A stretch of DNA of 64,000 nt from Rhizophagus irregularis (Eukaryota; Glomeromycota; Glomeromycetes; Glomerales; Glomeraceae): contig NC_089443.1 of the NCBI RefSeq assembly GCF_026210795.1, forward strand, positions 4,712,001 to 4,776,000. Reading direction: 5' to 3'. The notes beneath the pieces are model-generated. The model saw only the letters and a program-made list of their open reading frames with translations, was not told the DNA's origin and made no database searches. Made by a program: the position numbers and the translations under genes. Numbering within the stretch: position 1 is the stretch's first letter; each line of letters starts with the position of its first letter. Positions 6,441 through 58,169 of the stretch are shown here, piece by piece.

Positions 6441-8190
6441 AGACAATGGTAAAGTGACGCTCAAATTGCTCGTGCGGAGCTTTATGTGTTTCTAGTATCT
6501 GGTTTAATTTCTTATTTATGATCTTAGGTGTATCCTCTGTAATATTTCGGGTGAAACTGTTTTTTGATTGGTGAAATGCCGAAACTGAAACTTAAAAAAG
6601 GTGAAACTATTCCAAAACTGGCAAAACCTGGCGAAATTTGCCCAAACTTCCGAAATTGGCGAAACTTGGCGAAATTTCCGTAACTTGGCGAAACCTCAAT
6701 TATATTAAAATTTAATGTATATAGGTAAAAAAAATGAAAATAAAACAAATATTTTATTATTAAACGCTTTATCTTTAAACTTAAATCGGAAAACTATTAA
6801 TATTTAACGTTATTTTTATTTATGATAATTTATTTGTTTTGTTTTATTTATTATATAGAAGTGGAAATGAACTACGTGCATTTATTTATTGGTTAAATGA
6901 CGAGGAGCGAGGAATAAGTCATGTGACCTGTGATTTCCATATGACTGGCAAATTAACAAGGAAATGCAACTATTAAAACATTACTTTATTTATAATTAAA
7001 ATTTTTTGAAATTTACATATTATTTATATACTATTTATATTGAAAAAACAATGAAAATAAAATAGTATACGCGCGTTATGTTTTCTTTTACATCTTGGAT
7101 ACGAATAATTATCTTTCAAATTACAGCCAATTAAAGTTTAACACATGACTTTTTTAATTTCGCCAGGTTTCAGACATTTTGCCAGGTTTCGGAAGTTTTG
7201 CCAGGTTTCAGAAGTATCGCCAGTTTCGGAATTTGACACCTTTAGCGAAACCAGTTTCGCCAAGTTTCAGAAGTTTCGCCAGAAAGTGAGTTTCGGTTTC
7301 GCCCGAAACACTAATCCTCTGTTATATTACTCCATTTTTGGATTATAAAAATCACATCATTTTGTATTCTGCTTTTGATTATAAGTCATAAGTTCTTATT
7401 GGCCTTACATTCAATAAAATGGTATCTGTTTTCTTCTTTGTTAGCATTGCACCTTGGACAGACAAACTCTTTATATAGATTTGGTTTTCGCTGTAGTAGA
7501 ATAGTACCTATAGGAAGAAGTTTAGCAAATAGTTTAACAATAAATATTAAGTGCCAATATTTTTTAACTAAAATACAATTAAACCCTTTATATCTATGAA
7601 TTAAGTTTCAAATTATATTTCAATCAATTGGAATTTCATGTCCATTTGATTTTAGTATTGACCATTCTGCTGCCACTTTAGTATTCATTAGAGTTTTAAT
7701 AAATTTCCTTAAGTTGTATTCAATGGGGATCTGTTTAAAAATTGGAAAAAATCTGACTTTCCTATTGCTATAGTTAAATTTATTGTTAAAGTAACAGCTG
7801 TTGTTACTTGTGTTTTTAGCTAATTTATCTACCATTTCATTCATAACATCTCCACTGTATCTCTTAACTTTTACTAACATTAGATCCATCTTTTTTTCCT
7901 GTAAAAGAATATCTATCTTAAGTAAAATTAAAGAATTAGACTATTTCAGTAATTTTCTACCTGATTTATTATATTTATTATTAATCATATAGATGCCACT
8001 TTGACTGTCTGTATATATCTTAATTTTTGCATTCATAGGAACTTGTGAGTAATGCCAGAAAAATAGCCACTAGTTCTGCACATGTAGATGAGGGCCATAA
8101 TGATAAATTTGCTTGGGCAGATAAGGCAGGTTCATCATTGACACAGAATGCTGCACCTATTTTTGTGTTCACTAAATTGGGATCTTGTAT
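6441..8190 (-). pseudogene. LINE-type retrotransposon ORF2 C-terminal relic (RNase H plus zinc-knuckle tail)
   Basis: Reading the minus strand leftwards from about 8190, recognisable RNase H pieces occur in order. These are IGAAFCVNDE; STCAELVAIFLALL with the catalytic-type Glu; DIYTDSQSGIYM with the catalytic-type Asp; and, near 7830, DVMNEMVDKLAKNT with the last Asp position. Downstream are WSILKSNGHEIPID and a CPRCNANKEENRYHFIEC zinc-knuckle-like segment near 7470-7420. Stops and frameshifts are present. The relic is split by the MITE at 6540-7313. The same protein family occurs on the + strand at 41000-43023. Confidence 0.7.
6540..7313. mobile_element. hAT-like MITE, 774 bp, TSD ATCCTCTG
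   Basis: Flanked by exact 8-bp duplications ATCCTCTG at 6532-6539 and 7314-7321. Terminal inverted repeats: left TAATATTTCGGGTGAAACTG, right (reverse complement) TAGTGTTTCGGGCGAAACCG. Both subterminal zones are filled with iterated CGAAACT/AGTTTCG words. No coding capacity. It interrupts the LINE relic. Confidence 0.9.
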
Positions 8191-8619
8191 TAAAAAAAGG
8201 AATTTAATTACATTTAATATAAATATTAAATATAAATAAATTTACTTTTCCATTTTCAAATCTATTTGAAGTATCCTGAAAATCCTCTAATTTATTTAAC
8301 AAAATATTGTATATAGGAATCATATATAACAGTGTTGGATATGCTTTCCCACAAATTTGCTTTGTTGCTTTAGCAAAATACTAAAAAATAAAAATTTTTA
8401 ATAAAACTATAAAAATACATAATTATATATATAATATTAAAATTTAACCTTTAATAGCTCTTCTATTTCTAACAAATTAATCTATTTATCTTCATTAATT
8501 GTAAAAGGACAAAGATTTGAATCACTGTTACTTAATATATTAAGAGGTTAAAAATAAAATTATAATTGTTTTTAATAAATTAATTAAAATAAAAATTAAT
8601 AAAATAACAAACTTACTTC

Positions 8620-9001
8620 TAGAGATGCTGGGCGAAACCGAAATATTTAGTTATTTGACGAAACCGAAATAGTTTAGACATTTAAAATTAAAAGACGAAA
8701 TGCCGAAATTCCATATTCCATGGTATTTTTATGGATTTTTCATAAATTTCCATGGATTTTTAATTATAATAATTATTTAAAAAAATAAATTTTTATTAAA
8801 ATATAATATTTTTTAAAAAGAATTTATAAAACTATTATAAATATAATTAATTTTATATATTTTAATAATTAAACTATAATTTTATATAATTAAAATTAAA
8901 ATTAAAAATTATTATTATATAGTTTAGTCAATGACGAAACCGAAACTAGTTGGTGACGAAACCGAAATTTTTTGCAAAAAGAGTTTAGGCAGGCACCACT
9001 A
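8620..9001. mobile_element. hAT-like MITE, 382 bp, TSD CTTACTTC
   Basis: Exact 8-bp duplications CTTACTTC at 8612-8619 and 9002-9009. Ends read TAGAGATGCTGGGCGAAACC and, on the other strand, TAGTGGTGCCTGCCTAAACT, an imperfect inverted pair. Iterated GACGAAACCGAAAT words lie near both ends. The centre is nearly pure A+T. Inserted in the hAT transposase relic. Confidence 0.88.
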
Positions 9002-12479: not shown

Positions 12480-15415
12480 GGGGACTTACACATATCACGT
12501 AATTATAGATTACTATATAACCAACCCCCCCCCTAGTGAGATTATACTATCGCGTCATACGTAATTAATTCATAATTATAGTAACTGTCACACAAGTGTC
12601 ATCATATTTTATATAGAACTCAAAATTTTCTCATCGATCTAATTTTGACAATATTTCTTTATTCTCTTTTTTTTCACTATTTAATATATGCCTTTTAAAT
12701 TATGACTGTTTTACCGCTATAATGAATATAATAGTCAAACAAAAGAATTTTTTACATTTTTATTAATAAATCCGATCAAATTAAAAAATTACATTGTTTT
12801 TTGCAACTGTACACATGTGATTCTGCGATTTTTTAACGTGACTCAATATTTAATACACGTAAAAATGATCTGATCGCGTTTTAAATCTCCCCTTTAATTT
12901 CTTTATCTGATCTTTTTAACATGCAGACTTTCCTAACTACACCGAAATATAACAAGTTTTACATTTATAAAACTCCCATAAATCAACACCAGAAATTCTG
13001 CAATGCTTTTGATATTATTTTATGGTGAATGCAAAAAATCCTGTATACCCAAAACTTAGTTTACGTACAGAATGTACTAATGCATGGAAAGAAATTCGGC
13101 ATAAATCTCAAGAAGAAATCGAAAATAAAATCCAGGAATATCTAACAACTCCAGTTCCAATTCAAGGTTTTTTGCAAACTTTTCATTCGCGACCAGGTTC
13201 ATCTGGCTTCTCCGAAATGCAAGTCAAAGTTCTTAACAAAAGCCAATAGAAGAGACTATCATAGCTGATGTTAATCCACCTCCTAATGCTGCTGCGCAGA
13301 AGAAAGCTGCAGAAATTATTAATGCAACCAATATGAAACTTGCTGAGCTTCAACAAATTTACAATTCCACCAGTGATTATGAAATTCGGTGTAATTTAAT
13401 GGAGCGTATGACAAATCTTAAAGAAATTTTGTGCAGTGAGAATAATAAGGTTAAGAAATTAAAGCGTCAAGCAGGTTATCAACGTAAGAATAGAGAAAAA
13501 AAAGCAAAGCTTTTGCAAGAACGTCAAGAAGTAATACAGTATAGTTCACCTGGTCGTCCACCACTTTTGACTCAATATCCTGATTTACATGAACATATAC
13601 ATGAATGTATTGAGTTCGGAGCTGCAGATAAAAAAAGAAGAAAGGAGGTTATTAAAGTTAGAACAATCCGTCACCTCCAAGAAGAACTCAAATCAAAGTA
13701 TAACGAATACCTTTCTCGTACTACTCTCAGCAATTATCTGCTACCATCTCGATCAAATTCTATAGCTGCAAGGACTCATCACCACCCAGCTAATATTGCA
13801 GTTGCCTCCGTTTCTAGAGATGAAAAAAATGAACATCCTGATGAGCACTATTGTCTTGCTTCTGTAAAAGGTGCAAAACAATTTGCAGCCTTATTTCCAA
13901 CTCATTCTGTTATCATTTCTCAGGATGACAAAGCTAAAGTTCCTCTTGGTATCCCTGCAGTTGGGAGAACGTTCAAAACTATACAGAGCTTTCAAGAACC
14001 AGTTACACTACCTGATCATGATTTTCCGGTTGGAATGCAGCAAAAGCTTATTCCATCAGTATATTTACTCATTAATCCACATGACACAAATGATACTTTT
14101 CGTAATGGCCAACTTTCAATTTTCGTACGTCCACAATACCAAGTTGGTACAAGTGCAGCCACTCATATGAATGATCTTAATTCGTTAACTCAAAACAGCC
14201 ATTTTGATGAGATATTAAAAGTTGACGGCAAAATAAAACCTATTTGGATTCTTTTAGTTGATGGAGGTCCAGACGAAAATCCCCGCCATATGAAAAATAT
14301 TTACCAATATTGTAGAATGTTCCGCGCCTTTGACCTTGATTATCTTTCTATTCGGACTCATGCACCAGGTCAATCGGCTTATAATCCTGTTGAGCGTAGT
14401 ATGTCAACACTTTCTCAAAAATTGGCCGGTATAACATTACCTATTAACAAATTCGGTTCTCACCTCAATTCTCAAGGCCAAGTTGTAGATTCGGAGCTTG
14501 CAATGAAAAATTTTCGTTATGCTGGTGAGGTTTTGTGTACTCTTTGGGAACGCGATCCTATCTTCGGGAAACCAGTCACCACGCAATATATTGATCACAA
14601 AAACACTCCATTCAATGATGTTATATTTCCTGGATCTGAAAAAGAAAGTAACAATGAATCAAACGTACCCTGGCGGTGGTTAGAAAATCACACCAAAATG
14701 TGTACATACTCACTTGACATCAAGAAATGCGAAGATCGCTCTTGTTGTTTACCTAACCGTCATGAGGAAGCAGCTATTCTTCTTGCTGAAAATAATGGAT
14801 TTCTCCCACCAGTAACGAAAGGAAAAGATGGGCATTTCTTAAATCCACTCCATATACTAGAGTATTGTGACAAGCTTAAAATACCCGGATATGATGCCCA
14901 TTGTCCTTCTATTAGCTCAAGCACTTATAGTCGTCTTTGCTGTTCTGAGTGTAATGTGTACTTTCCAACACTTTCCATTGTTGCTCAACATAAGAAAAAC
15001 CAGCATCCAAAGCGACGAGGACGACCAGCCAAACAGAAAAAAGTATTTACAAATTCTGTTGACGATTTTTCGGTGCCTGCATGGGACGTACAAGTTTTAA
15101 TTATAAATGACCGAGAGGTGCAATCGGAAGGTGAGTAAGGAGGTGGTTTTATACGAAGTGCGAAGTGGCTTTACTTTAGAAAATTATGTCTTAAAAAAGT
15201 GGTAAAAAATGTTTTTTTTTAATAAAATTTTATTACGGCATGTTACACTACAGAAATAAAAAATGTATTTTGTGATACAAGTGATTTTCGTTAATTCCAG
15301 CTAAAATTACAACCACGAAACTAATTTTGGCCAAAGGCCATAAAGTATCACGTGATAGGTTAGATATTCGGGATACCCCCCCCTTCCGATAATTACGTGA
15401 TATGTGTAACTCCCC
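12480..15415 (+). mobile_element. DNA transposon, 2936 bp, TIR GGGGASTTACACATATCACG, TSD TTA
   Basis: The inverted termini match over about 26 of 27 bases, starting GGGGACTTACACATATCACG (left) and GGGGAGTTACACATATCACG (right, reverse complement). Both are flanked by TTA (12477-12479, 15416-15418). The uninterrupted target (GTTGTTATTATTATATAG) is still present in the neighbouring repeat copy at about 15598, which independently confirms the boundaries. A run of nine C lies just inside the left end (about 12526-12534) and a similar C-run inside the right end. The only gene is the transposase. A 3-bp TTA duplication is known for PIF/Harbinger, but the protein does not show that family's recognisable motifs to me. 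Confidence 0.88.
13022..15138 (+). CDS. DDE-like transposase with C-terminal C2H2 finger (one frameshift)
   Basis: The only gene of the 12480-15415 element. The first segment, 13022-13246, is open for 75 codons. The frame then shifts by one near the AAAA run at about 13236-13240 and continues open as PIEETIIADVNPP through ATG 13333 to stop 15138 (601 codons from that ATG). N-terminal third: basic coiled coil (KKLKRQAGYQRKNREKKAKL). Middle: candidate catalytic acidic residues in IISQDDKAKVPLG (first Asp), WILLVDGGPDENPRH (second Asp) and YNPVERSMSTLSQKLAG (Glu), an order compatible with a DDE/RNase H fold. C-terminus: CCSECNVYFPTLSIVAQHKKN.H, a C2H2-like finger, then basic RRGRPAKQKK (AT-hook-like). 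I do not recognise the superfamily. Apart from the single frameshift, which could be real, programmed or an assembly error in the A-run, it looks recent. Confidence 0.8.
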
Positions 15416-28950: not shown

Positions 28951-29204
28951 TATTATAATTAAAATTATTATTATTATAGAGAAATTAGTATATAATTAAT
29001 ATTAGAGAAATGTAAAAAAATGAAAAAAATGTAAAAAAAGATTAAAATTGATAAGATCGATCTGCAAAAATTTGGTAATTAAATCAGAATACTCAATTCT
29101 GTAATATTGTAAATTGCACAATTTTGCAATCATGTGATTTGTGCGAGAAGAACGATACTAACGTCCTTGATTAAAAAAAAAAAGAATTTATTACTAATTA
29201 AGGT

Positions 29205-30785
29205 TAGTGCTCCGAAAAAAATCTGATCTGATCTGGGATCCGCAGATTTGATCTGAGTCAGATCGGTTCGGTTTTCAAAATTTTGATCCGTAGATTTAAA
29301 AAAATCTGATCTGATCAGATTCAGATCAGATCAGATCAAACACGAGAAAATCTGATCCGATCTGAACAGATTTCAGATCAGATTTTTTTTTTAAAAACCC
29401 TTTCCTGGACGAATGGACACTGGACGACCAAGATTTAAAAGAACGAACTAGGTAAGTTCTTTCTTTTTTTTTGTTATTTTTACTTGAGGGAACTTAATTA
29501 ATGGTTCCCTTCTTTTTTATTAGGAAACCTGGACGAACGAAGCCTAACGACCAGAATTTAAAAAAAAAGAATGAACTTATGGTGAGTTCGTTCTTTTTTT
29601 TAAGGTTTTTTTTTATTTTTTATTTAAGAAAACGTAATTAACGTTCCCTTTCTTTTTTTTAGGAAACCTGGACGTGGACGAAGTCATTAACGACCAGGAT
29701 TTAAAAAAAGAACGAACTATGATAAGTTCATTTCTTTTTTTAAGTTTTTTTTTTTATTTTTACTTAAGGGAACATAATTAACATTCCCTTTCTTTTTTTT
29801 TAGGAAACCTGGACGTGGACGAGGCCATTAACGACCAGGATTTAAAAAAAGAATGAACTATGGTAAGTTCGTTTCTTTTTTTAAGTTTTTTTTTTAATTT
29901 ACTTAAGAGAACGTAATTAACGTTCCCTTTCTTTTTTTTTTAGGAAACCTGGACGTGGACGAGACCATTAACGACCAGGATTTAAAAAAAGAATGAACTA
30001 TGGTAAGTTCGTTTCTTTTTTTAAGTTTTTTTTTATTTTTACTTAAGGGAACATAATTAACGTTCCCTTTCTTTTTTTTTAGGAAACCTGAACGAATGAA
30101 GTCGTTAAGATATTAACGACCAGGATTAAAAAAAAGAATGAACTATGGTAAGTTCGTTTCTTTTTTTAAGTTTTTTTTTTTTAATTTACTTAAGGGAACG
30201 TAATTAACGTTCCCTTTCTTTTTTTAGGAAACCTGGACGTGGACGAGGCCATTAACGACCAGGATTTAAAAAAAGAACGAACTATAGTAAGTTCGTTTCT
30301 TTTTTAAGTTTTTTTTATTTTTACTTTAGGGAACGTAATTAACGTTCCCTTTCTTTTTTTTTAGGAAACCTGGACGTGGACGAAGTCGTTATAGTTCATT
30401 TCTTTTTTTAAGTTTTTTTTTTAATTTACTTAAGGGAACGTAATTAACGTTCTTTCTTTTTTAGGAAACCTGAACACGAGACGAAGCTGAACGACCAGGA
30501 TTTAAAAGAACGAACTATGGTAAGTTCATTTTTTTATTTTTATTTTTATTTTTTTTTATTTTAAGGAACGTAATTAACGTTCCCTTTCCTTTTTTTAGTA
30601 CAAGGACCAGATCCGAACCAGATTCGGATCAGATTCAAATCGGATTCAAATGGATCTGAACCAGATTCGGATCAAATTGAACCAGATCTGATCAGATTCG
30701 GATCAGGTCAGATCTATTAAAATAAAAATCAGATCAGATCAGATTTAAGCTAAATCAGATCTGAACCGATCTGTTAGGAGCACTA
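29205..30785. mobile_element. hAT-like MITE, 1581 bp, TSD ATTAAGGT, with internal array
   Basis: Exact 8-bp duplications ATTAAGGT at 29197-29204 and 30786-30793. Ends TAGTGCTCCGAAAAAAATC and, reverse complement of the right end, TAGTGCTCCTAACAGATCG. Subterminal zones are runs of GATCTGATCAGATTCAGATC words. The interior is the 140-bp array listed separately. Inserted six bases into the terminal repeat of the older MITE. Confidence 0.9.
29430..30598 (+). repeat. 140-bp tandem array with splice-site-like units
   Basis: About 8-9 units at spacing 138-142 bp (unit starts near 29520, 29661, 29802, 29942, 30080, 30222, 30362, 30462). Each unit reads GAAACCTGGACGTGGACGAG, GACCAGGATTTAAAAAAAGA, ACTATG, then GTAAGTTCGTTTC, a palindrome GGGAACGTAATTAACGTTCCC-like core, and CTTTCTTTTTTTTAG. 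The last parts look like a consensus 5' splice site, pyrimidine tract and 3' splice site, giving an apparent 59-nt exon and 80-nt intron per unit. Confidence 0.8.
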
Positions 30786-31059
30786 ATTAAGGTTGCTTGC
30801 TGAAATCTAGGGGTTTAGGTAATATTGCATTTCGCTAAAAAGTGAAATTCTGCCAAAACTATATTAAAGTTATATTAAAAAACTGGCAAAACTTTGGAGA
30901 AAGGCGAAACTGCCGAAACTTATTATAAATGCCGAAATTGCCAAAACTCTACTAAAATTATAATAAATCTATAGTAAAATTTTGACGAAACTAATCGTAG
31001 GATTTTGAAGAGGTTTAGACAAGCAACCTTATTACTAATATTGTTAAAGAAAAGAAAAG

Positions 31060-31959: not shown

Positions 31960-32446
31960 TTTTTACCAAATTGCCAAATAAAAAATGTTTCGCAACATTT
32001 TTATAAAATCAACAAAAGAAAAAATGTTGCGCAACATTTTTTTTTTTGACTAATAAATGTTTCACAAAGTTTGGTAAATCAGTTCGGTAAATTTACCGAA
32101 ACTGATCAATAAATCTACCAAAACTGAATGGTAAAGTTTACCGAACTGAATGGTAAAATCTACCGAACTGTTTAGTAAAATCTACCATAAAATCTACTAA
32201 ACTGTTCAGTAAAATCTACCGTAAAATCTACCAAACTGATCGGTAAAATTTACTGAAACTTACTGAAAGTTTCAGTTTGGTAAATCAGTTTGGTAAATCA
32301 CAAAACTGATACCAAAACCGAAGTTACTGAAACTGATCAGTAAATTTACCGAAAGGTTCAGTTTGGTAAATCAGAATACCAAAACTAATCTGATACTGAA
32401 ACTGATCGATATGATTCAATAGTTACCGAAATCGATTGGAGCCCTA
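31960..32446. mobile_element. Probable hAT-like MITE, right end defined, left end uncertain
   Basis: Right terminus, read inward, is TAGGGCTCCAATCGATTTCG, matching the TARNGNTC pattern of neighbouring MITEs. It truncates the polymerase relic at 32447. Interior consists of iterated CGGTAAATTTACCGAAACTG words in both orientations. I found no exact copy of the expected duplication CTTTTTGC on the left, so the left limit is approximate and the element may include the array at 31060. Confidence 0.55.
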
Positions 32447-35264
32447 CTTTTTGCTAATTTCTTTATGCTTGGACTTCATAGACTTATTTGCCAAGACATA
32501 GTGGTATGACTTTGCATAAATATGGTAGAATTTAGTAATAACATTTTCAGGAGTTTTATCCTTGAAAAGTCTGATAGTCTTAATATCATTAAGATCGAAT
32601 AGGTCTGAACACTCTGCTATATCCTTTTTTGTCTCAATATGATAGATAAAAGAGTCAGTATCTATATATCCAAGTTGTGCTTTGTCTCCATACTTCTTCT
32701 TGACGAAACTATACCAGAAGCGATATATTAAGAATTTAACAGATGCACTGACAATGATATGGTGGTCGTCATCTATAAACAACAATATTAATAATAGTAT
32801 AGTCTGAAATTTAAAATTTTATTTATTTATATTATATAACTTATTTTTAAAGTACTTTGCTAAATATAATAATTGCCACGTAAGCGGCAAAATTTTTTTT
32901 TGCTATATTACATGAAATTTTTGTGGATTTTCATAGAATTTTTGTAAAATCCATAAAAATTACATAAAAACTAGTTCAAAATTTTATGTTTTTATTATTG
33001 CTACTTATTAAAATTATCTAACTTTAACCCATAATATTAATTAAAATTCTTATTAAATTCTATAAAATAATCTGATAGAAATGTTCAGTGCATATTATTC
33101 TATCATTTTATCAGTTTAGTTTTTTCTTTTTACTATTTAATTTACAATTTATAAAAATTTGAAGTCACATAATATTAGTGGGATTTATAGATAATGGCTA
33201 CCATAGGTTTATTGAGAGTTATACTAGTCTTTTTCATATGTGCACCTACAAGTGTATTGCCAAGTTGATGAGTATACTTGAAGGAGGGCTTACGAACTTT
33301 CTTAAAAAATTTCTTTTCATCATTTTCATTGATCATTTTCATAAGCTTAATGTCTTGATACTTACATATATTCTCCATAGTCTTGCCATAGACTAAGTTA
33401 TTCATAAGTTTAAAGAAATCCTTCTTGAATGAATTCTTGGCCTACTGACATAGGTTTGTATTTTTTGCAATATAAGGTGCCAACCAATTAGTCTGTTTAA
33501 ATGACAGAACCTGTGTAACTTCATCTATGACTATATCTAACTTAACGTAATACTGGAACTCTTGGTAGTGGATAATATAATCTTCATGCTTACCAAGATG
33601 TAGAACTAATTTTTCTGTTTTGGAAAATTATCCTCCATCTAAGTTTTCAACAAGATTTGCGATATATGGGCTTAACCTATCCTTTTTTACTGCAATACTT
33701 TTTATGGCAGGAGGTAAATTTCTCAAATAGTCATAGGTTTAAGAGGGAAATGTACTTTGATATTTAGAAAATATCCATGAGGTGAATCTGCTGGTATATA
33801 TCTTTAGTATTCTTTCAAGAATTTTCTTCTGAAATTCTGGATAATCTCACAAGTCTGGAGAAACTGCACTACTGATTTGAGACACAGTTTTCTTGGAAGT
33901 ACTGGAGAACACTTCACTTTCTTCACCAAATAATATCCATGTATGATCTGGCTTATACTGCTTCTGGTGATAGTATTTAAGAATGAAGCGTCTATCTTTG
34001 CAGAAAAATCCATATTGCTAGTTCTTTTTATGTAAGACTTCACAAATGGGACATGGTTTAGAAGACAAGGCCTTAAAACATGCATAACTATTTTTAATAC
34101 TGTAAAGATGAAGCTAGCTATACTTGGCAGAAACTAGGTCTGAAGCCTTAGTTAATGCAAACTCATCTTTTATGAGTTTCTATTCTACTTCTTCCCCTTC
34201 AGAGAAGAAAGTACGAGGCCAGATTTCCAATGAAGTCTTTAGTTGGATTAAATAATCATCAAGTTTTTTATAACCTTTGTTACCTTTCTCAACTGAAAAA
34301 ACTGCTGGTTTTTTTATTCTGTCTCCTTTTGGCGAACCAAAAAGTCAGAGACTGAAACGTGATTTGTAAAGTTCAAGGTCAATATAGTTTGCATATGGTC
34401 TTTCTACTTTTTCAATAATCTTTTCTACAAAGCCTTTAATATCACAGTAGTTAATAAAATATGCGTATGGATAAACAATATACCAGCTGCATTTATCCTG
34501 ATTAGGAATGGTAACGGTCACGGTTATTAATCAGTTATGACTGGTTATGACCGTAACTGATATCGGTCGGTCAAAGGCTTCTGACCGACCGTTTAACTGA
34601 CTGTTTAACTGATTATTTAGCCTTTTTTTACGAACTTAATCAATAAAAAAAGCTAAATAGCGTTTTTTTTGATTAAATTCCACTTTCTTCTTTTTAACAA
34701 ATTTTAATTAAGAAAAAACGTTAAAAAGTGATCAGTTAAACGGTCGGTTAAATGGTTAGAAAAACGGTCAGCCAAAATGGTCGGTTGGTCAAAGGCTCTT
34801 AACCGGGTATGACCAACCGATAACCGACCGTGACCGACCGTTGCCATCCCTAATCCTGATTTGAGGAGCTGGCTAATGCAAATGATTCTGGTGAGGCAGG
34901 TACTTTAAGATCTAAATAAAGGATCAGATATCTGCACATGCATTAAGAATTCTAGATAATAGATCATTGCGAATGACTGGCTTTCCATAAACCTCCTTTG
35001 TAATTATTCTTCTAATCACATAATTATTTCAATATCTAGGGTTACAATAGATCGAACTTGCATTTTCCATTTCTGCTTTAGACGATCATAGGATGGTGCA
35101 CCATGCCAGTATACTAGAACTCCAAAATATATATAAAAAGGTAAGGTGACCTTTGAACTTTTTACTAATAGCTGTACGCAAGGGTTTTCTATAAGTTTAG
35201 TACACAAAATTACCTCCTTACTTTGGATAATTGGAAAAAATACGCAAATTAATTTCCTAACCAC
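32447..35264 (-). pseudogene. Relic of family-B DNA polymerase with upstream primase-like region (viral/plasmid-type)
   Basis: At 32785-32447 the minus strand reads LGYIDTDSFIYHIET, the YxDTDS metal-binding motif C of family-B polymerases. At 33405-33175 it reads NNLVYGKTMENICKYQDIKL and LVGAHMKKTSITLNKPMVA, typical of the organellar/viral DNA_pol_B_2 group. Further upstream, near 34050, PCPICEVLHKK resembles the zinc-knuckle of helicase-primase proteins, and scattered frames extend to about 35264. Many stops and frameshifts, plus the MITE at 34503-34852, make it non-functional. Origin from an integrated DNA virus, a Polinton-like element or a linear plasmid cannot be decided here. Confidence 0.6.
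34503..34852. mobile_element. hAT-like MITE, 350 bp, TSD ATCCTGAT
   Basis: Exact 8-bp duplications ATCCTGAT at 34495-34502 and 34853-34860. Ends TAGGAATGGTAACGGTCACG and, reverse complement of the right, TAGGGATGGCAACGGTCGG. Subterminal zones are runs of CGGTC/GACCG words. Inserted in the polymerase/primase relic. Confidence 0.92.
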
Positions 35265-40625: not shown

Positions 40626-40999
40626 TGGATTTTTTATATGGAATGTGACTGTACAATCGTGTAACTCATATGGCGTAACTGTTGAATGCTTAATTGCCGA
40701 TCGGTATTTAATGGATATCTAATTTCATCATTTTGCACTATTTTCGCAGCAATTCTTCGATCACGTGACAATTTTTGCTGATCATTTCCTGATTAATTTT
40801 GGCGATAAAAAAATATTTTTTTATATTTCAAATAAAACCTAACACATACTTTATATGGCCCTAAAATTTGCAAAATATATGTATTTTTTTGCCTTCTGAG
40901 CAAGTTTACTTAGAATATCAAAGAGGGTTTTAAATGCCATTTTTGCAAAATTCATCATTTTGAAAAAATCTATATAAAAAGCCAAAGATTACCCTAAGT
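40626..40999. other. Upstream region of the Ca2+ ATPase
   Basis: Contains CGATCACGTGAC (a CACGTG palindrome, about 40759-40770) and a 13-bp inverted pair CAAGTTTACTTAG (about 40912) / CTAAGTAAACTTG (about 40994). The second arm of that pair overlaps the LINE target duplication. No gene seen; promoter function not testable here. Confidence 0.45.
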
Positions 41000-43208: not shown

Positions 43209-46200
43209 TAGGGTTGCAGACATTTCTTAAGGTAACTACCTAATACGTCAATACGTCATGTCGTAAAGGGTGTACTACCTCTAGATATTTTTTGCCGTAT
43301 ATATGTATGGGGTAGTAAGGTAGTAGCCGTATTTGACGTATTATATGACATATGCCGTATCATGTGTTATATGCCATATTTTATACCGTATCATAAGATA
43401 CTAAAATTATTTAGTTTAAATTTTTGCCGATCTTTAAAAAAAAATTCAGAAAAAAAAAAATTCCGTTATGTATTTATTTAATAGCTATTTGTAAATTAAA
43501 ATGTTATTATATTATAAAATACTAATACTATTAAAACCTACTACAAATTGTTATTATATTATCAAATTATTATAAATGTTTAAAAAAAAACAAAAGATTA
43601 TTCATGATTCTCCGGAATCTCTGTAAAATTCCTTTCGGTATCTCTTTCACGTTCTAAAAATCCATTTAATACATCATTGGGATTGTAATTCAAGTCTTCT
43701 GAATCTAAAGGTCGTTCTTGTATTGGATTAATATCAGCACTAACTTCTCCATTATCATCAATAGCTGCCAAATCAACAATATTGCTAATAGCTAATTCAG
43801 TATTTGAAAAATTTTCTGATGGTAAAGTTGGATTTGAATTATTCCCATTGATATTAACTATATCATTATCATCCTCTAAGCTAATAATGCTATTAACTGA
43901 AGCAATATTAATACTTTCTCTTAACTCACTTTCAGTCAGATCCTTACTTATATAACTCAATTCTCTTTGAATATTATTCATATAATAAGACCGAATTCTG
44001 GCTATAGCTTCAAGATTCTTTAAAGACAAATTGGTTCGCCTTTCACCCAAAATCCAATTAAGGATCGAAAAATTCCTTTCACAATTTGCTTGAGTTGGAT
44101 TAATAGAAAAAATTTGACATGCAAGTTCAGGCAAATGTCGTGGTTGTATTTTGATTAATTTCCACCATACCTTCGGAGATTCAAGTCCAGGAATATAAGG
44201 AAGATCAAAAGGAGCAAGTCTTAATTCAAACCTACGAAGTTGAGCGATTAATTCTTCACTTTCTTTGCGAGTATGACCAAGACTTTGCCATATTTCAATT
44301 GCAGCTAAAGCAGCTTTATGAAAAGCATCATCTTTTAGACCTTTACCTAGCAAACAAAAAAAACTTCATATTAATTATATTATATTGAGTCTTTCATAAA
44401 TCATATTTTATAATAGTATATATTTAACCTCGATAATGTGGATGAAGATAGTAAGCCAAAATATAAAGAGGATGTAAAAATTCTTCAAATCGTTGATTGA
44501 AAATATTAATAGCAAAGGGTTTGAAGATATTTGTATTTGGTAATTGGTATATTGCATAGGCCAATTTAATAAGATAGATGAAGCAATCTGATAAAGTAGC
44601 TTCATTTGCCTCTAAAAGATTTATACATTCTTTTATTGGCTTCCATATAGAACGAACTGATCGACATGTAGAAAAAAAGGATTCATCTTCTATCAAAGCA
44701 GCAACTTCATTATTGGTAATAGAATTAGCATGCTCACTAAGGATCTAAAAATTTTAAATTTAGTGTTTATTTAATTTATTAATTATATCAAATTTTACTT
44801 ACCCAATCAAATACAGGTCGAGCTCTTAATAAAGCATCTGTTGTCATGAATAATGATCCCCAACGTGTTTTTACCCAAGTTTGTAATCCACCTCCTTTAA
44901 TTTTCATATTAGTAAAACCTTGCCTTAAAAGAGCATTACTAGCATGTGATGTACTAAAATACCGATTAATTTTACCACATTCATTAATAAATTTTTTAAT
45001 AGGTTCAAGTTTAACTAAATCAGATGCGATCAAGTTGATTGCATGAGCTGCACAACGTATATTCCATATATGTGGATATGTTTGGTGAATATTTTGTCTT
45101 GCAACTCGGCAATTGGAAGCATTATCAGTAACTATCGCAGCGAACTTATCACTGCCAAGTTTTTCAATAATTTTCGATATTTCTTCTGTTAAAAATTCGC
45201 TTGTATGTAATTCTGATGAATAATTATATAAACCAATTAAGTATTCCATTCAAGTATCAGTTGTAACTATGTAATTATAAATTGATTCCATTTTGGGAGT
45301 GCTCCAACCGTCTAGTACTATTAGAAATAGAATTTTAAATAAAATGCAATCAGTATATTTTCAACAGGTGAATTTATTTAATTTTTTAAATTACCAAGAC
45401 GTACATATAATATTAACTTATATTTACCCAATGTAAGATGCTCAGATTGTTCCAAATCACGATCAATAGCTAGACCCACTCGTATATGTTCTTCAGTAAC
45501 AAGTCGGTCAGAAAGAGTAGTCCGTGATGGTGGAGAATAACCAGGATTCAGATCTTTAAATAGATCTATAACAAATGGATTTTCAATCACATTAAAGGGA
45601 ATACCAGCCATAATCCAAGCTTTTAAAACCTTTTTATCAAGTCGGTCAACAACAGACTTGGGTAAAGATTGATCAGATTTATAATGATCAGTTATTTGCG
45701 ATTAAGTTGAATTAGGTGGTCGTAAAGAAGGGAGTGATTTTTGGTTATTACGAGTATATATTGTTTGCCGGCTAGCTATAATTTCACGCCAGTATCTTGA
45801 TATCTCTTTAGGACATTGTATGCATTCGTTTGCCAGGTGCACTTCCATTTTTTGTGGCTTTCCTCTTGACCATTTTGACTTGCAATAAAAACAAATAGCC
45901 TCATAATGTCCATTATTCTTTTGCGCGCCTCTTTCATAATATTCCCAGATTTCCGAAAAGGGCTTTGTATTTTTTTGAACCTTTGGAAGTTTTATCTTTT
46001 TATTATTTGGAGTTATTTGTTCTTCGTCTGAAGAAGCTATAATTTCTGTATTTTCATCAGAAACTGGTCTTTTGCCCTTCTTTGAACTGCTTTCTCCACT
46101 ATTCATGAGTAATGAGAATAAAAAAGTTGCGAAAATACACATTACATATTTACATTTCGCGTGTTTACGTTAATTTAAATTCTATGGTAAAGGGGGAAAC

Positions 46201-46369
46201 ATCATGTGATATGCCATACGTCAAGATGTACGACATGCGTCAAGACATATGTCATACGTCAAGATCTACATCATAAGTCAGTGGTTGTAGCAAACGGCAC
46301 ATGTGACGTATTGCCATGACGTATGCCGTAAGGTAGTTACCCTCAATAAAAGAAATGTCTGCAACCCTA
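43209..46369 (-). mobile_element. hAT transposon, 3161 bp, TSD CTTACCAC
   Basis: Exact 8-bp duplications CTTACCAC at 43201-43208 and 46370-46377. Perfect 18-base terminal inverted repeats TAGGGTTGCAGACATTTC. Both subterminal zones are filled with iterated TACGTCA/TGCCGTA words (43240-43400 and 46190-46345). Encodes a transposase on the minus strand. Inserted in a CTTACCAC word of the Tigger-like element's internal repeat. Confidence 0.95.
43598..46142 (-). pseudogene. hAT transposase with BED finger (few stops)
   Basis: Cut-and-paste transposase of the 43209-46369 element. Four exons by splice sites: 46142 (or ATG 46106)-45428, 45317-44803, 44744-44429, 44346-43598. BED finger: CFYCKSKWSRGKPQKMEVHL. 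Later landmarks: LVLDGWSTPKMESIYN (split by the first intron), IVTDNASNCRVARQN with the catalytic-type Asp, CAAHAINLIASDL, and the C-terminal dimerisation block (INPTQANCERNFSILNWIL, RRTNLSLKNLEAI). The frame is otherwise continuous but has a TAA near 45702 and a TGA near 45251, so this copy appears recently inactivated or contains sequence errors. N-terminal KKGKRPVSDE is a possible nuclear signal. Confidence 0.85.
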
Positions 46370-47363: not shown

Positions 47364-50300
47364 TTATAATTGGTATTTTCTACTAATTGGATTTACGGCT
47401 AAATACTCTCTTGCATTTTGCCGGTTTGAGATTTGGTAACTTACTGGTACAAATCTACCTAAAATATGATGCACAGGTATTATACAATCACGACTTATTG
47501 GATAAAATTCGGTATTCCACAACTCAACATTACAAATTTCATCACTGCTGAAATAGTATCGAATATTGGTTGAATTTGCGTGTTTATACCAACGAACGTA
47601 TGCTAGAAAATGTTCGACGGGACCATCCGGAAAGTCTACTACGTGAGTAAAATAATACTGAATTTGACCTGGATAGGTGTCGACATCTTCATCATCCATA
47701 ATAAATTTCGCTAAGACGTACGAACTTTTTACATGTCTTAACGATAATGACGATCCAAAGACTTCTGAACCAATCCGACACCTTCCGAATTGGTTAATTT
47801 TGACCCTAATTATTATATCGTTATCTAAACCTTCTACAAGAGGCCTCCAAAATCCAAATGATTCGTAAGTCGCATTGTAATATTCGACCATTAAATTTAA
47901 CATTTCACTTGAAAGTAGTATATTATGAGATACCGGCTTAAGAAATTCACCTGGGAAACCTTCTTTGCCAGAAATCTGTGAATCTTTAATATTTTGTGAA
48001 TTCAGCCAAAATCGATGCATCTCATCTGACGAAAATTCATCAGTAACTGAAAGGGACCCGATAGTACGCTGACTGTTTAGCAATTCAAGACCTTTTACTT
48101 CGATACCTGAACTTATGATATTTTCGATTTGTTTATCAAACATTAATCGACGCATAAGTTCAGACTCAATTTTCCTGTTGCTATTTGGTAACGAACCTAA
48201 AAGTGCGAAATCAATAAATTATAAGCTAATATTGAAATCGTTAAAATCGTTAAAAAATCGTTAACAGATATTTACCTAAAATACCGTTCATACGTTCGAA
48301 AGAGAAACACCAGAACGCATATAATGGTCCATAATCAGATGAGCAATCACGCAAATGCAGAGAAAGATGAAGATTCGGTGTGATCTTATCTCTGCCGTGG
48401 TGATTCTCAATGAGCTTGACTATTTCGATAAGACTTCTATGGGCTTCATCCACCAAATTAGATTCTAGAATCCGATTTACCAAAATCGAACAAACCCTGA
48501 CAAAATGATTCAGGATTCTTCTATCTACGTCTGAAAGGTGTTCCCAAAGTGATACAGTTGAATAAATTGTAAAGAATATTCACCACTGATCGGCCGTAAA
48601 ATTGGTGAATCCCTCTCCACTATGAATTTTTCCTGGAATTCGACCTAAATCGGATGGTATCTGAAACTCGTCCATCTTTTTCTGAATTTTGTTCAAAGAA
48701 TTTGGTATCAAAATACCCCCATCGATCCAAATTCGTTTTACTATCCACTTCGCAATGCCCAGAAATAAGCAATGCATTGGATCGACTGTAATAAATCTAA
48801 TAGGGTCAAAATATAATAGACGCAACAATTTGGACCATCTAACGCCAGTTTCTTTGACGAAGCGCTTTCTAGCAGCGTCTGAGTTGCATCTTCGCCAACC
48901 TAATGCGTTTTGCCGGTGCTCATTCGAATCTCGAGCAGAATACCCTACATCATCCATTCCAGCAAAATTATGCTGCCCATTTTCATAATTTGCTTTTTTC
49001 TCACACCTGTGACATGAAACTAAGGCAGAAACATGACCGCAAATTTTTCTTGTGGCGGGAATGTCACATGATACTAAGATTAAAGCGCCACGAACTCTCT
49101 TTCCATTTTCGCATTCATAAGTACGATTTAGTGTTAACCCAGCCCAGAGTGTTTCCAATTCGTTAACTATTGGTGCTAAATAGTGGTTCACTTTATGTAG
49201 GCTGACCTCCTTTGGCCCAGGTAAAATGCCGAGAGTCAATAAATTTTCACGTCTAAATCGGATATCGCGTGGCAAATTGCATATAGCGGCGTATACGACA
49301 CCGATACTATAAATGGTACTATCATATGGCTGAAACCAATCAAGATTCAGCATCAAGCCAAGATGAGAATCGGCCACTTCGCTTCTGAAAAAATTTGGCG
49401 AATCTTCATTGTCCGATTCTTTAAAATTCTTCCACACTTGCCCATCATATATATCGGTCAAAATATTATCAAAATTTGACCGATTAGTTTAATGTCGGAG
49501 AGAATTTTCAAACCCAGGCCGACAAAACATAGTGGCAAGTTGTTGATTGATTCCAGCAAACGGATACATTAAATTAGGTCGTATTATTGTTCGATTTGTC
49601 GATGCGCTAATTTTTTCAGATAATGCCGTATTGCAAAGACGTGATCTGCGAACTGAAGAATTGGGAAATTCTATGTGTTGACATTTCATTATAGCAGGAT
49701 TGTCCTCTTGTTTGAAATCTACCACTTCCTCTTTTTTATACAATTTGTGACATTTCGGACAAGGTACAAAACTATGAAATTGGTCATTTAATCCAAGCTT
49801 CTTTCTTGTTAAGTAAAGCGAATCTGGGAAATCATTAAAATCGTCACTACTGAACTCGCACAGGGCCAATTTCATAAATTTTATTAGAGTCTCAGTAGCT
49901 GTCTCTGCGATATTGAATCTTGTTCGAAAGTTCATTATCCAAAGTAAAATCCATAAAAATCGATCATAATTCGATTCTAAATATGGTGGGTTTTGAAATG
50001 GTTCATAACTAGGTGGTGAATAGTCTTCAAAAATTTCAGAAATTCCAGAAATTGGATCATTATCTGATTCACTGCCTATAGACAATGTATCACTGTAGAT
50101 ATCTTCCTCTGTAGTATATTCGGATGATGATGAATCTTCTGGATCTTCTGAAATTTCCAGATGATTTGTATACTTTCTTGCACGTTGTCGAGGTAAGAAG
50201 TTAAATTCGACATCTTGATGTTCATCATCAACATCATCTTGATTACTGTTATCTGATTTTTCCGATTCTTGTCTAATAGATTCATCAATCATTCGTCCAG

Positions 50301-51564
50301 CTGAAGCGGATATTGATGTTTCACCTATTTCAAGTTGACGAACTTGAGACGAAATTGTACCTTGCGAATCTTGGTATTCTTGATGTCTAGAATCGTGAAT
50401 TTCTTTTGTGCGAGAATCCACCAAGTTGCCATCACAATCAGGACAATTACAAACTACTAGTTTTTTTTTATTACTTGTTGGTAAGGATGGTCATCGGTCC
50501 TACCGGTCCTACTCGGTCCTGGACCGGTCGGTCCCAGGACTTGTAGGACCGGACCGCGGTCTTGCATTTTTTTGTGGCGCAGTAGGACCGGTCCTGAGGA
50601 CCGACCAGTCCTCATACCGGTCTTCATATAATAAATGATTTTTATATTGAATAAACCTATTAATCTGACAAAGGTCTTCATAAAATAATATAAAGACCGG
50701 CCATTTCCAAACCAATAAATAATAACAATCACTCTTCCCACTTGTAGAGTTGCTTGTCAAAACGCTGAAACTCCGAAAGCTCCAAAAAAGCGTTTAAGCG
50801 GAATATCTCGTCATCCAGTGATCGATAAAAGGATGAAACCACCGCCATTCGAATCGTCTCGGCGAGACGCGTCGAATGGTGACTAAATCATGTTTCTAGG
50901 ATCGATAGATAGTCGGTAATTATTGAATTTATTATCAAATAGTTTTGCCGACGTAATTTTTTTTTTATCGATTCTAAAATCATGATTTTGATACCATTCG
51001 ACGCGCCGCAGCGAGACGATTCGAATGGTGGTAAAATCATCCTTTTATAATCACTGGATAGCGAGATATTGCGTTTTGAAGTATTTTTTCTCAAAGCTTT
51101 AAATTTTGCATGACGTTGTGATGATATCCAGGTGATTTGTAAAAAAAAAATTTATATTAAAAACCATCCCAATTAGTGTTCATTTATAAAACAAGGCTAT
51201 TCCTAATAAAGTTAGGGAAGAAAATCTTTTTTTATTTGCAAAAAAAGAAAAAAGACCGATCGGTCTTAAAAAGACTGCGGTCCTTAAAAAGACCGACGGT
51301 CTTATTATATGTGATACAGGACCGAAAGACCGCGGTCCTACACTAAGACGGACCGGTCCGTCTTTTTATGGTGTAGGACCGTAGGACCGCGGTCTTCTAG
51401 GACCGATGACCATCTTTACTTGTTGGTCTAGCAGAAGATACTATTTCTTCGTTTATTATACCAGAAATTGATCTATTTCTACGAGTAGAAGATGGCTGAT
51501 TTGAAGGTGATTCTTCATCATCAAGATCGTCAAGTATACTAGAGACTGACCTTTTTCTGCTCAT
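47364..51564 (-). pseudogene. Tnp2 (Plavaka/CACTA-type) transposase, best-preserved copy, split by a MITE
   Basis: ATG 51564 opens MSRKRSVSSILDDLDDEES and runs to 51427. A 937-bp MITE then intervenes, and the frame resumes at 50481 with CNCPDCDGNLVDSRTKEIH (Cys-rich N-terminus). Next come acidic linker, NFRTRFNIAETATETLIKFM, CPKCHKLYKK, TDIYDGQVWKNF, LMLNLDWFQPY, VVYAAICNLPRDIRFRRENL, GILPGPKEVSLHKVNHYL, SCDIPATRKICGHVSAL..CHRCEKK, DPMHCLFLGIAKWIVK and FSFERMNGILG. An intron 48197-48275 follows, then SLPNSNRKIESELMRRL to VHHILGRFVPVSYQI and the stop at 47364. Besides the MITE there are in-frame TAA (49489-49491) and TGA (about 48586). The TAA also occurs in the fragment at 56060-56675. Confidence 0.85.
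50482..51418. mobile_element. hAT-like MITE, 937 bp, TSD CTTGTTGG
   Basis: Exact 8-bp duplications CTTGTTGG at 50474-50481 and 51419-51426. Ends TAAGGATGGTCATCGGTCC and TAAAGATGGTCATCGGTCC. Subterminal zones are GGTCC/GGACC/GACCG words. The centre (50770-51075) is a long imperfect inverted repeat built from CCATTCGAATCGTCTCG words like those in the Tigger-like element. Removing it together with one target copy restores the Tnp2 reading frame across the site. Confidence 0.92.
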
Positions 51565-55299: not shown

Positions 55300-55876
55300 T
55301 AAATTTGTCTTAATTCAGAAAAAAATTAATTACAATTCGAAATAAATTTACTGCAAATTTACCGCAATTCAGAATAAAATTTACTGCAAATATACCATAA
55401 TTCAGAATAAAATTTACTGCAATTCAGACGCAATTCAGAATAAAATTAACCGCAATTCATTAAATTTTTACCGCAATTCAGAATAAATTAACCGCAATTC
55501 ATTAAATTTTTACCGCAATTCAGAATAAATTTACCGCAATTCAGAATAAAATTTACCGCAATTCAGAATAGAAAATTTACTGCAATTCAGATTAAAATTT
55601 ACTGCAATTCAGATTAAAATTTATCGCAATTTATCAAAATTTATCATAATTCAGAATAAATTCACTGCAATTCGGTAAATTTATGAATATATTTTTTTAA
55701 ACAATTCGGATCAAAAATACTAAGCAATTCAGATACAATTTGGATATTCTGATCGGCGTCGATCGGCCTGCCAATCGGAACTTTGCCTAAATTAATAAAT
55801 CGGCCATCTTTATCACCAAATTCGGCCTAAAATCGGACATCCGATTTCTAGCCGATTTGGACTATTTCGACCAGTG
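55300..55876. mobile_element. Right terminus of the 47-56 kb Tnp2 element (TIR CACTGGTCGAAATAG)
   Basis: Subterminal array of TTTACCGCAATTCAGAATAA (about 15 imperfect copies, 55300-55690), then CCGATTT/AATCGGAC words, ending GGACTATTTCGACCAGTG at 55876. Read inward this is CACTGGTCGAAATAGTCC, a CACTA-type start. The opposite end was not found. Confidence 0.7.
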
Positions 55877-56059
55877 TATAATGAGCTTTTAAACAAGATT
55901 CAATATTGCAGAGACTATACTTCTCAGTAGAATTAAAAAGTCAATGTCAAAATATTACGGCATAGCCAAAAACAATTACGTCAGTACAAATGTTTACTAA
56001 TAAAACATATAATTACGGCGAATTACGGCATTTTAATTACGTCTGTCATAATTCAAAAA

Positions 56060-56675
56060 TTCAATTCCGCTGATAAGTATAGCAGAGACAGCTACTGAGA
56101 TTCTAATAAAATTTATGAAATTAGTCCTATGCAACGATTTTAATGATTTTTCAGATTCGCTTTACTTAACAAAAAAGAAGCTTAGATTAAACAACCAATT
56201 TCATAGTTTTGTATCTTGTCCGAAATGTCACAAATTATATAAAAAACAGGAAGTAGTAGATTTCAAATAAGAGAACAATTCTGCTATAATGAAATGTCAA
56301 CATATAGAATTTTTCAATTCTTCAGTTCACAGATCATGTCTTTGCAATATTGTCTAAAAAAATTAGCGTATTGACAAATCGAATAATAATGTGACCTAAT
56401 TTAATGTATTTATTTGCTAGAATCAATCAACAACTTGCCACTATGTTTTGTCAGTCCAGATTTGAAAATTCTCTTTGACATTAAACTAATCGGTCAAATT
56501 TTGATAATATTTTGACTGATATATATGATGGGCAAGTTTGGAAGAATTTTAAAGAATTGGACAATAAAGATTCACCAAATTTTTTCAGAAACGAAGTAGC
56601 CGATTCTAATCTTAGCTTAATGCTGAATCTTGATTGGGTTTAGCTATATAATAGTATCATTTATAGTATCAGTAT
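56060..56675 (+). pseudogene. Tnp2 transposase fragment
   Basis: Translation matches the middle of the Tnp2 gene at 49900-49300: AETATEILIKFMKLVLC, CPKCHKLYKKQEVVDF, IYDGQVWKNF, LMLNLDW. It has several stops, including the same CAT-TAA-ACT stop (56482-56484) as the copy at 49489. Truncated at 56676 by the next element. Confidence 0.75.
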
Positions 56676-58169
56676 TAGAGCTCTGCAACCTGACTTGACC
56701 GATTGGGTGACCTGACGGGTTGACCTGAAATATTCAGGTCAGGTCATCAAATTCATGACCTGATATGGGTCAGATCAGTACTAATTGGTACCTGACCTAA
56801 CCCGTTGACCTGATATATATATATTTGGGTCAAATAAATTAAAAAGCACTGAAACTAATAGTTTCAGCATTTTTGTATATAAAATTAAAGGAAAAAATGC
56901 TGGAACTAATGATTCTGGCATTTTTACATGTAAAATCGAAAAAAAAAATGCCAAAACTGATAGTTTTAGTGTTTTTTACATGTAAAATCAAAAAGAAAAA
57001 TGCTGGAACTAATAATTCTGGTATTTTTACATGTAAAATCAAAGAAAAATGCTGAAATTATAAGTTTCGGCATTTTTTACTTGTAAAATCAAAATGAAAA
57101 AATGCCAGAACTAATAATTCTGGCATTTTTACATGTAAAATCAAAATGAAAAAATGCCAGAACTAATAATTCTGGCGTTTTTACATGTAAAATCAAAATG
57201 AAAAAATGCCAGAACTAATAATTCTGGCGTTTTTACATGTAAAATTGAAAAAAATACTGAAACCAATAGTTTTGGTATTTTTACATATAAAATCAAAAGG
57301 AAAAATGCCAAAACTAATAATTCTGGCATTTTTACATGTAAAATCGAAAAAAAATGCTGAAACTAATAGTTTCAGTGTTTTTACATGTAAAATCATGAAG
57401 AAAAACGCCAGAATTAATGATTTTAGCATTTTTACATGTAAAATAAAAAAAAAATGCTAAAACTAATAGTTTTAGCGTTTTTACATGTAAAATCAAGAAG
57501 AAAAATGCTGGAACTAATGATTCTGGTATTTTTACATGTAAAATCAAAAAAAAAATGCCGAAACTATTAGTTTTGGCATTTTTTACATGTAAAATCAAAA
57601 AGAAAAATATTAGAACTAATAATTTTGGCATTTTTACATGTAAAATCAAAATGAAAAAATGCCAGAACTAATAATTCTAGCATTTTTACATGTAAAATCG
57701 AAAAAAAAATACTGAAACTAATAGTTTCAGTGTTTTTACATGTAAAATCAAGAAGAAAAATGCCAGAACTAATAATTCTGGTATTTTTACATGTAAAAAC
57801 AAAAAAATGCTAAAACAAATAGTTTTAGCATTTTTATATATAAAAACAAAAAGTAAAACGTTAGGACCTGACGTTTTTTCAATAAAAATTAGAAAAAAAT
57901 CATTTTTTTTTAATTAAAAATGTTAAACCTAACATTTTTTGTATAATTAAAAAAAAAAATGTTACAAACTATTTTTTTACTTGAAATATTTAATAATAAA
58001 ACTTCAGGTAACCCATATTAGAGCTTCGCATGGGTCAGGTCAGGTCAGGTTATCTGATTAACCTGAACTGAAATTTTTTTTCAGGTTAGATAGGTCAGGT
58101 CAGGTAAACCGTTCTGACCTGACTTGACCCATTTGATCTGAAAGTATTCAGGTCACTTCAGGTAACTCA
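56676..58169. mobile_element. hAT-like MITE (left end defined) with palindromic array
   Basis: Left terminus TAGAGCTCTGCAACCTGACT follows the TARNGNTC pattern; subterminal words are GGTCAGGTCA/CCTGACC. No right-hand copy of the expected duplication ATCAGTAT was found. A second, directly oriented start (TAGAGCTTCGCATGGGTCAG) lies at 58019, and everything stops at 58170 where the inverted Tnp2 element begins. So this is probably two related elements, the second truncated. Confidence 0.6.
56830..57860. repeat. About 55-bp palindromic tandem array, about 19 copies
   Basis: Each unit is itself a hairpin: AAAAATGCCAGAACTAATAA opposite TTCTGGCATTTTTACATG, followed by TAAAATCAAAA. Paired substitutions occur in the two stem arms (for example CCAGAAC with TTCTGG, CTGAAAC with TTTCAG), so the stems keep pairing while the sequence changes. 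Long frames on both strands are artefacts of the array. Confidence 0.88.

Follow-up and report, generated by a model that had tools for sequence, protein, structure and literature searches.

Subterminal word arrays follow the transposase lineage in a community of hAT elements of Rhizophagus irregularis

A stretch of 64,000 nt from the genome of Rhizophagus irregularis (assembly GCF_026210795.1, contig NC_089443.1, positions 4,712,001 to 4,776,000; 30% G+C), referred to as a whole as the window, contains nine hAT-type elements, here called A to H and O. Comparison with related elements in the genome (146.7 Mb searched, 32 contigs) indicates that they very probably form part of a community of hAT elements and their non-autonomous derivatives, which have a common tip and carry lineage-specific arrays of short words as a putative transposase address that diverges slowly with the transposase. 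An earlier note on this DNA had proposed that every element has a private word and that words and transposases co-diversify rapidly. The co-diversification is borne out by the comparisons below, whereas the rapid pace is not.

Word arrays and transposase divergence

The end zones (up to 300 bp) of each element contain strongly over-represented 6-mers. Of 35 elements, most have enriched 6-mers at each end; L009, in which the class word is one-sided, is among the exceptions. Word class labels were assigned by the analyst from the enriched 6-mers, and three of the classes have one element. The CCGGAT-like class comprises nine elements, with L044 as the weakest member (main word ATCCGA). The ACGTCA/TACGTC class is represented by E, L009 and L010, the CGAAAC class by A and O, the CGGTT(C) class by L037, L062, L063 and L065, the AATCGA class by L045 and L047, the CGGTCC class by F and the GATCTGATC class by C; the single-element classes are AAATCAAAT (L064), ACCCGG (L061) and AAGTCGA (L048). 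Since CGAAAC is common to three window elements (those at 6540 and 8620 and the outer element at 29199), nine elements are not equivalent to nine words, and the words are not entirely private. No common word spacing was established; the commonest pooled spacings were 5 bp (46/388) and 10 bp (28/388), as raw counts without a shuffled control.

Word similarity (cosine of the enriched 6-mers outside the terminal 20 bases) was compared with transposase identity for 28 coding elements (for the O-type element of L067 the left zone only was used). Mean similarity is 0.58 at a transposase identity of at least 55% (13 pairs), 0.33 at 40-55% (13 pairs) and 0.18 at 30-40% (60 pairs), and drops to 0.021, 0.015 and 0.013 in the classes below 30% (69, 90 and 133 pairs). 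With interior sequence as a control, similarity was 0.015-0.08 at all identity levels. Mantel tests, which are independent of the word class labels, gave r 0.75 for the 28 elements and 0.51 for 17 representatives, with 0 of 5000 permutations reaching either value. The trend is also present in pairs of which the end zones give no blastn hit of at least 40 bp: mean similarity was 0.31 at 40-55% identity (12 pairs), 0.17 at 30-40% (58 pairs) and at most 0.02 below 30%, some of these pairs still having hits of 24-36 bp. Loci L005-L008, L036, L038, L039, L042, L049, L050 and L057-L060 were dropped for lack of resolved ends; the second copies L003 and L004, as well as L012, L066, L068 and L069, were also dropped before the word analysis, while the O-type element of L067 was retained despite its mismatched duplication.

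A tree was calculated with IQ-TREE in quick mode from the region downstream of the BED finger; here L018, the F-type element of L055 and the window copy of E were additionally left off. The ten word classes require nine changes on this tree, which is the minimum, as compared to a mean of 18.0 for shuffled labels (as low in 0/200). The CCGGAT group forms one side of a branch with a support of only 67, and long-branch warnings were obtained for L061, L064, L048 and L065. The CGAAAC elements do not form a single clade. O and A separate before the ACGTCA group does, and this suggests that CGAAAC is the older word in the A/O/ACGTCA lineage and ACGTCA derived.

If the words changed rapidly, recent families would already possess private words while the tips remained fixed. 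That elements of a single window combine a common tip with different words fits such a course, and so do pairs with unrelated words at 32-37% identity, namely A versus the E group (similarity 0.00-0.03) and F versus L065 (0.02-0.03). However, all 13 pairs at 55% identity or higher have alignable subterminal DNA and, by the analyst's labels, the same word class, 8 of the 13 pairs at 40-55% still exceed a similarity of 0.3, and the nine elements of the CCGGAT class have related words at transposase identities down to 30-31%. Because a word is often retained where the transposases are only 30-55% identical and the DNA can no longer be aligned, the qualifier "rapid" is not supported; this alternative is largely refuted and we consider it very unlikely. 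The different words of the window belong to long-separated lineages and are not the product of recent diversification.

A further alternative is that the words are inherited noise, with arrays that arose by replication slippage or a single capture and were passed down without being bound. The words of C indeed have a 5-bp tandem period, and those of the CCGGAT and AATCGA classes can often be read as overlapping palindromes; moreover, non-autonomous copies descend from coding ones, so that word sharing alone needs no function. Against this, the words outlast alignable DNA (no 40-bp blastn hit) at 30-55% identity whereas interior DNA has no such similarity, and the arrays lie mostly at both ends, which makes a purely passive origin highly improbable in our judgement.

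Element ends and target duplications

The elements of the window are listed in Table 1. Exact 8-bp target duplications had been claimed for seven of them, and the flanks were identical at the claimed positions in 7/7 cases. The elements at 29199-31031 and 29205-30785 form a nested pair: C is inserted 6 bp inside the left tip of O, and its duplication spans the junction of O.

Table 1. Elements of the window and transposase features of element E (positions in the window)
Feature	Positions	Strand	Description	Word	Target duplication
Element A	6540..7313	.	non-autonomous hAT	CGAAAC/GGCGAA	ATCCTCTG
Element B	8620..9001	.	non-autonomous hAT; right end matches O-type end pattern	CGAAAC/CCGAAA	CTTACTTC
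Element O (outer)	29199..31031	.	miniature inverted-repeat transposable element (MITE) of ~250 bp, split by element C	GCCGAAAC	TTACTAAT
Element C	29205..30785	.	nested in O	AGATCTGATC	ATTAAGGT
Element H, single end	32050..32446	.	tip TAGGGCTCC at 32446	GGTAAA/TTTACCGAAAC iterations	
Element D	34503..34852	.	MITE	CGGTC(A) and related	ATCCTGAT
Element E	43209..46369	-	coding hAT, transposase spread over several open frames (introns or breaks)	ACGTCA/TACGTC	CTTACCAC
E transposase, C-terminal open frame	43601..44365	-	Dimer_Tnp_hAT PF05699, 27.7 bits (cut-off 21.4)		
E transposase, middle open frame	44791..45249	-	DUF659 PF04937, 63.7 bits		
E transposase, BED-type finger	45822..45893	-	CCHC, CFYC...HLANEC, within the open frame 45705-46169; recognised by its motif only, Pfam giving no hit		
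Element F	50482..51418	.	non-autonomous hAT	CGGTCC/AGGACC	CTTGTTGG
Element G	56676..58169	.	left tip TAGAGCTCTGCAACC at 56676	GGTCAGG, iterated on either flank of a tandem-repeat interior	

A strict scan of the window (TARNG ends, exact 8-bp duplication, terminal inverted repeat of at least 9/14) returned 5 pairs, all of them claimed elements, as compared to 0.32 per simulated window (maximum 2, n=50). A relaxed scan (inverted repeat of at least 12/16) gave 7 pairs against 0.29 per simulated window (maximum 2, n=100); five of the seven are claimed elements and two resemble AT-rich or internal-repeat chance pairs. The elements at 8620 and 29199 score only 10/16 in the relaxed scan, a level at which there are 18 pairs versus 4.45 by chance. 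The element at 29199 is credited nevertheless, because genome copies support its ends; the one at 8620, of which a single copy was examined, is supported by its exact duplication and a right end that fits the O-type pattern.

Genome-wide searches with the end patterns gave 412 matches for D/F, 124 for C (some places counted twice, with two gap lengths), 711 for the B/O right end, 58 for A, 63 for G (up to 2 mismatches) and 21 for H (up to 3 mismatches), and none with the reversed controls. The single ends reported at 32446 (H) and 56676 (G) are thus repeated genome ends. For G, no right end in the window carries the 8 bp of the left flank, and a second end was not found; for H, a second end was not found in what was searched. 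Samples were drawn among the matches listed (first 100 places each) for D/F (20 of about 29 listed pairs), C (first 10 pairs) and O (12 of the first 13 ends, L069 being excepted). Duplications among these were exact in 15/20 D/F copies (at least 7/8 bases in 18/20), 7/10 C copies (at least 7/8 bases in 10/10) and 11/12 O copies, so that most sampled loci with such ends do have duplications, A being exceptional (see below). In the E family a duplication is present in 5/6 copies with both ends found, including the window copy; of full-length genome copies of E there are one at 99% and three at 83%, and relatives are near 67%. The O-type coding copy with both ends found (L067, n=1) has flanks that do not match. 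Five A-type end pairs with MITE-like spacing (L083, L085, L086, L088 and L090) have flanks matching at 2-5 of 8 bases; A-type pairs lacking matching flanks are possibly recombined or end-to-end copies.

The tips were compared in 18 representatives (16 coding elements and 2 window elements; 36 ends). TA is present in 36/36 ends, R at position 3 in 36/36, G at position 5 in 34/36 and T at position 7 in 36/36, whereas positions 8-9 vary. These position-wise counts give TARNGNT as the common tip. The longer consensus TARNGNTGC given earlier holds in this shortened form, its final GC being part of an exact fit in 8/36 ends only; TARNG fits 34/36. The left ends of the elements at 6540 and 34503 lack G5, and both ends of L054, outside the 18 representatives, have C at position 7. 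The assignment to the hAT superfamily is supported by the 8-bp duplications, TAG/CAG-type tips, the PF05699 dimerisation domain and an N-terminal BED finger. At L055 (135-5691) an F-type coding element lies nested within a shorter one, which has TAAAGCTCC tips and words of the CGGTT class; this host element, C and H together carry the CTCC tip with several words.

Coding elements and their non-autonomous partners

A genome-wide search for PF05699 yielded 150 scored matches from 836 candidates, from which 26 loci were hand-chosen for long open frames, the words of the window being unused. In 19/26 of these loci, a de novo search showed the domain to be enclosed by inverted tips together with an exact 8-bp duplication, as against 9/650 mismatched locus pairings. 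The tip is of the TAR type in 18 of the 19; the other, L042, has an AT-rich non-TAR tip and was excluded from later analysis. L064 (tip match 9/14) was used in the word analysis though it is outside the 19/26 count. A sub-threshold PF14372 match was obtained for L043.

Sequence comparison revealed coding partners for several window elements. The partner of A is L035 (word-profile cosine 0.78); a second A-related transposase at C5:127649 is 86% identical, stop-bearing and located near an A end. C is matched by L033 and L034, which are coding but frame-broken (cosine 0.89 to L033), F by L017 with a 579-aa open frame (0.80), and O by L067 (0.59, with the window O represented by its right part only). 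In L017, L033 and L034 the PF05699 domain lies between the element ends. An E-type MITE was found as L011; A, C, F, O and L011 match their coding partners at cosines of 0.57-0.89. For B there is no clear coding partner (word cosine 0.24 to O and 0.22 to A). A coding hAT with the same word, as sought in the earlier note, thus exists for A, C, F and O, with E itself coding; there is no clear one for B, and none was found for D, G and H in what was searched, as detailed below. Random variation of words within families without a coding partner is not what was observed: words are conserved between copies and same-word coding elements exist.

The coding element of O type (L067:854-5001, continuing to L070:308; G000:C10) has a 572-aa transposase frame, and there are many related 572-aa frames in the genome. 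Downstream of it lies a 122-aa frame which is Myb/SANT-like as judged by eye alone. An O MITE is located inside each of L069 and L066, with flanks matching at 8/8 and 7/8; no coding element could be resolved at L036, L068 or L069. D-type ends delimit an element of 3994 bp (L018:21-4014; G000:C4:3133050-3137043), which contains no recognised hAT frame, and its 203-aa frame has no Pfam match. L037 and L063 were considered as coding partners of D and rejected, being different elements beside or inside D-type copies. In the case of L063 (322-4958), a CGGTTC-type hAT has inserted into a D-type element at 23 bp from its end, a second case of near-tip nesting like that of C in O.

BED finger and predicted contact residues

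L062 and L063 have PF02892 matches above the cut-off and L053 has one below it; the domain was unreported in the other scanned proteins, for example L035 and L040. The BED finger region could be aligned in 25 of the 28 transposases, that of E by its CCHC motif only. Whole-BED identity correlates with the words at r 0.63 for 25 elements and 0.30 for 14 representatives. In Hermes from the housefly, the BED domains contact iterated subterminal repeats via S66, N67 and R70 (PMC10368747). L062 aligned with Hermes chain 8edg across the BED finger (E 9.3e-12), which places positions 66, 67 and 70.

At the equivalents of positions 66/67, the CCGGAT class has G-N (9/9), the AATCGA class S-S (2/2), and the CGGTT and CGGTCC classes T/S followed by T (6/6). 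L048 reads T-T like the CGGT classes and L064 reads T-N, sharing N67, each with a different word. This comparison was post hoc, made after the alignment had been seen, with positions taken from the Hermes paper. Positions 66 and 67 rank 17 and 21 among 556 columns, driven by the CCGGAT clade. The triad has an identity of 0.60 in the 39 pairs with the same word; in the 10 of these pairs outside the CCGGAT clade it is 0.23, and in 70 pairs with different words 0.16. Residues 66/67 thus appear class-specific mainly through one clade, and may serve as a lead.

CpG content and decay

The subterminal zones have 3.85 CpG per 100 bases; the interiors of 31 elements have 1.61 and the window overall 2.69. 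An alignment of 11 O copies shows transitions at 13.3% of CpG positions versus 2.3% of other C/G positions (odds ratio about 6.6, from rounded rates); in 13 D copies the values are 7.7% and 4.5%. For R. irregularis, CG methylation of transposons has been reported, with low levels in numerous hAT copies (PMC8647823). The CpG-rich end zones, the transition decay and the reported methylation make a methylation-dependent loss of words plausible.

These same observations would suit words that are mainly host or transcriptional control sites, such as CpG methylation targets or promoter elements, but that reading, which we consider very unlikely, leaves unexplained that the words track the transposase tree and lie at both ends, and the two roles can coexist.

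Proposed mechanism and observations against it

Slow joint divergence of word and transposase would be understood as follows. The catalytic core would act on the short common tip, with an 8-bp staggered target cut common to the lineages. By analogy with Hermes and Herves, a multimeric transposase would load on the array of short sites through N-terminal BED fingers, and the lineage-specific array would be the address that keeps coexisting transposases on their own elements. MITEs would be carried along because both tip and array are kept. Word and transposase diverge together, slowly, the word often surviving to 30-45% identity and changing between deep clades. Binding of the words, its attribution to the BED fingers and its role in specificity are inferred from the analogy.

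Several observations weigh against this reading. The scatter of word similarity is wide: L044 and L046 have a similarity of 0.18 at 61% identity, and L009 and L010 one of 0.23 at 84%, L009 having a tandem repeat in one zone. Among 8 short A-type pairs outside the window, taken from all 58 matches, the duplication is exact in 2/8, matches at 7/8 bases or better in 3/8 and falls below this in 5/8; with the window copy and L035, both exact, the total is 4/10. No coding partner of D was found among the matches listed (100 of 412 D/F ends), the nearest word being that of L065 (0.22), and none of G or H in what was searched (nearest 0.08 to L061 and 0.17 to L037, respectively). The covariation of BED finger and word that the earlier note had proposed to test gave no signal beyond core identity: given the core, whole-BED identity has a partial r of -0.05 for 25 elements (3794/5000 permutations as high) and -0.09 for 14 representatives (3958/5000), while core identity given BED has one of 0.50 (0/5000) and 0.53 (1/5000). 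No BED finger was aligned in L061, where PF10683, the DNA-binding domain of Hermes, is matched by the N-terminal open frame. The ACGTCA class has one word but Q-K and V-A at positions 66/67, and residues 66/67/70 differ. Finally, the site of Hermes is AAGT and not the repeat first proposed for it (PMC10368747); the most repeated word therefore need not be the bound word.

As an extension of slow joint divergence, one might envisage ten or more mutually exclusive address systems in one genome that make up a legible protein-DNA code, with residues 66/67 setting the word. Because most words contain CpG, methylation by the host followed by decay may erase addresses and so retire non-autonomous copies. 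We regard this extension as doubtful.

Other features in the window

Transposase remnants are located at 48580-49488 (-), with a match to Transposase_21/tnp2 (PF02992, 47.8 bits), and at 13237-15138 (+), where a frame of 633 aa matches DDE_Tnp_ISAZ013 below threshold. Exons of a P-type cation ATPase lie at 36684-40718 (-), about 1.8 kb from element D. Tandem arrays occur beside O (31246-31789, 112-bp unit, 5.0 copies), inside G (56852-57852, 100-bp unit, 9.9 copies) and in C between the word arrays (29466-30385, 140-bp unit, 6.6 copies). The unit boundaries in C, GTAAGTT and TTTAGGAAACC (6 and 7 exact copies in the element), resemble repeated intron/exon-like units.

Relation to known hAT systems

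The transposases of Ac, Tol2 and Tag1 bind short subterminal repeats, and the non-autonomous partners in the Ac/Ds system share these repeats. The present elements have other words and occur in another organism. The subterminal repeats of Ac, Tol2 and Tag1 are named alongside those of Herves from Anopheles gambiae, in which the transposase needs no more for binding than a short CG(A)ATTCAT motif that recurs in both ends; the authors state that hAT transposases bind different sequences, which ensures specificity (PMC3143072). The Herves paper (PMC3143072) deals with one element, whereas here the motif is compared with transposase phylogeny across many. Similar to Hermes, the present elements have an 8-bp duplication, short tips, a BED-type transposase and a short motif iterated in both ends. 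They differ in their words; the Hermes site is followed by AT-rich DNA and the Hermes ends are used asymmetrically (PMC10368747). For BED-Hermes domains of the CGGBP/hAT-19 type, 22 proteins gave clear and diverse motifs, most of which contain CGG; for four hAT proteins the motif agrees with the subterminal regions of their own elements, and a CGGBP-type protein of R. irregularis binds an AT-rich motif (PMC8097297). These are mostly host genes from many species (PMC8097297), unlike the ten word classes mapped here to elements of one genome.

The principle that hAT transposases bind differing subterminal motifs is thus known, and the present set adds rich new members. At the level of titles and abstracts in the open-licence literature, no paper was found in which the words of a single genome are assigned to transposase clades. 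With many lineages and both coding and non-coding partners in one genome, the rate of word change becomes measurable against transposase divergence. The near-common tip, ten words and matched BED fingers provide a panel for how BED fingers read DNA, a question which extends to host proteins derived from hAT elements.

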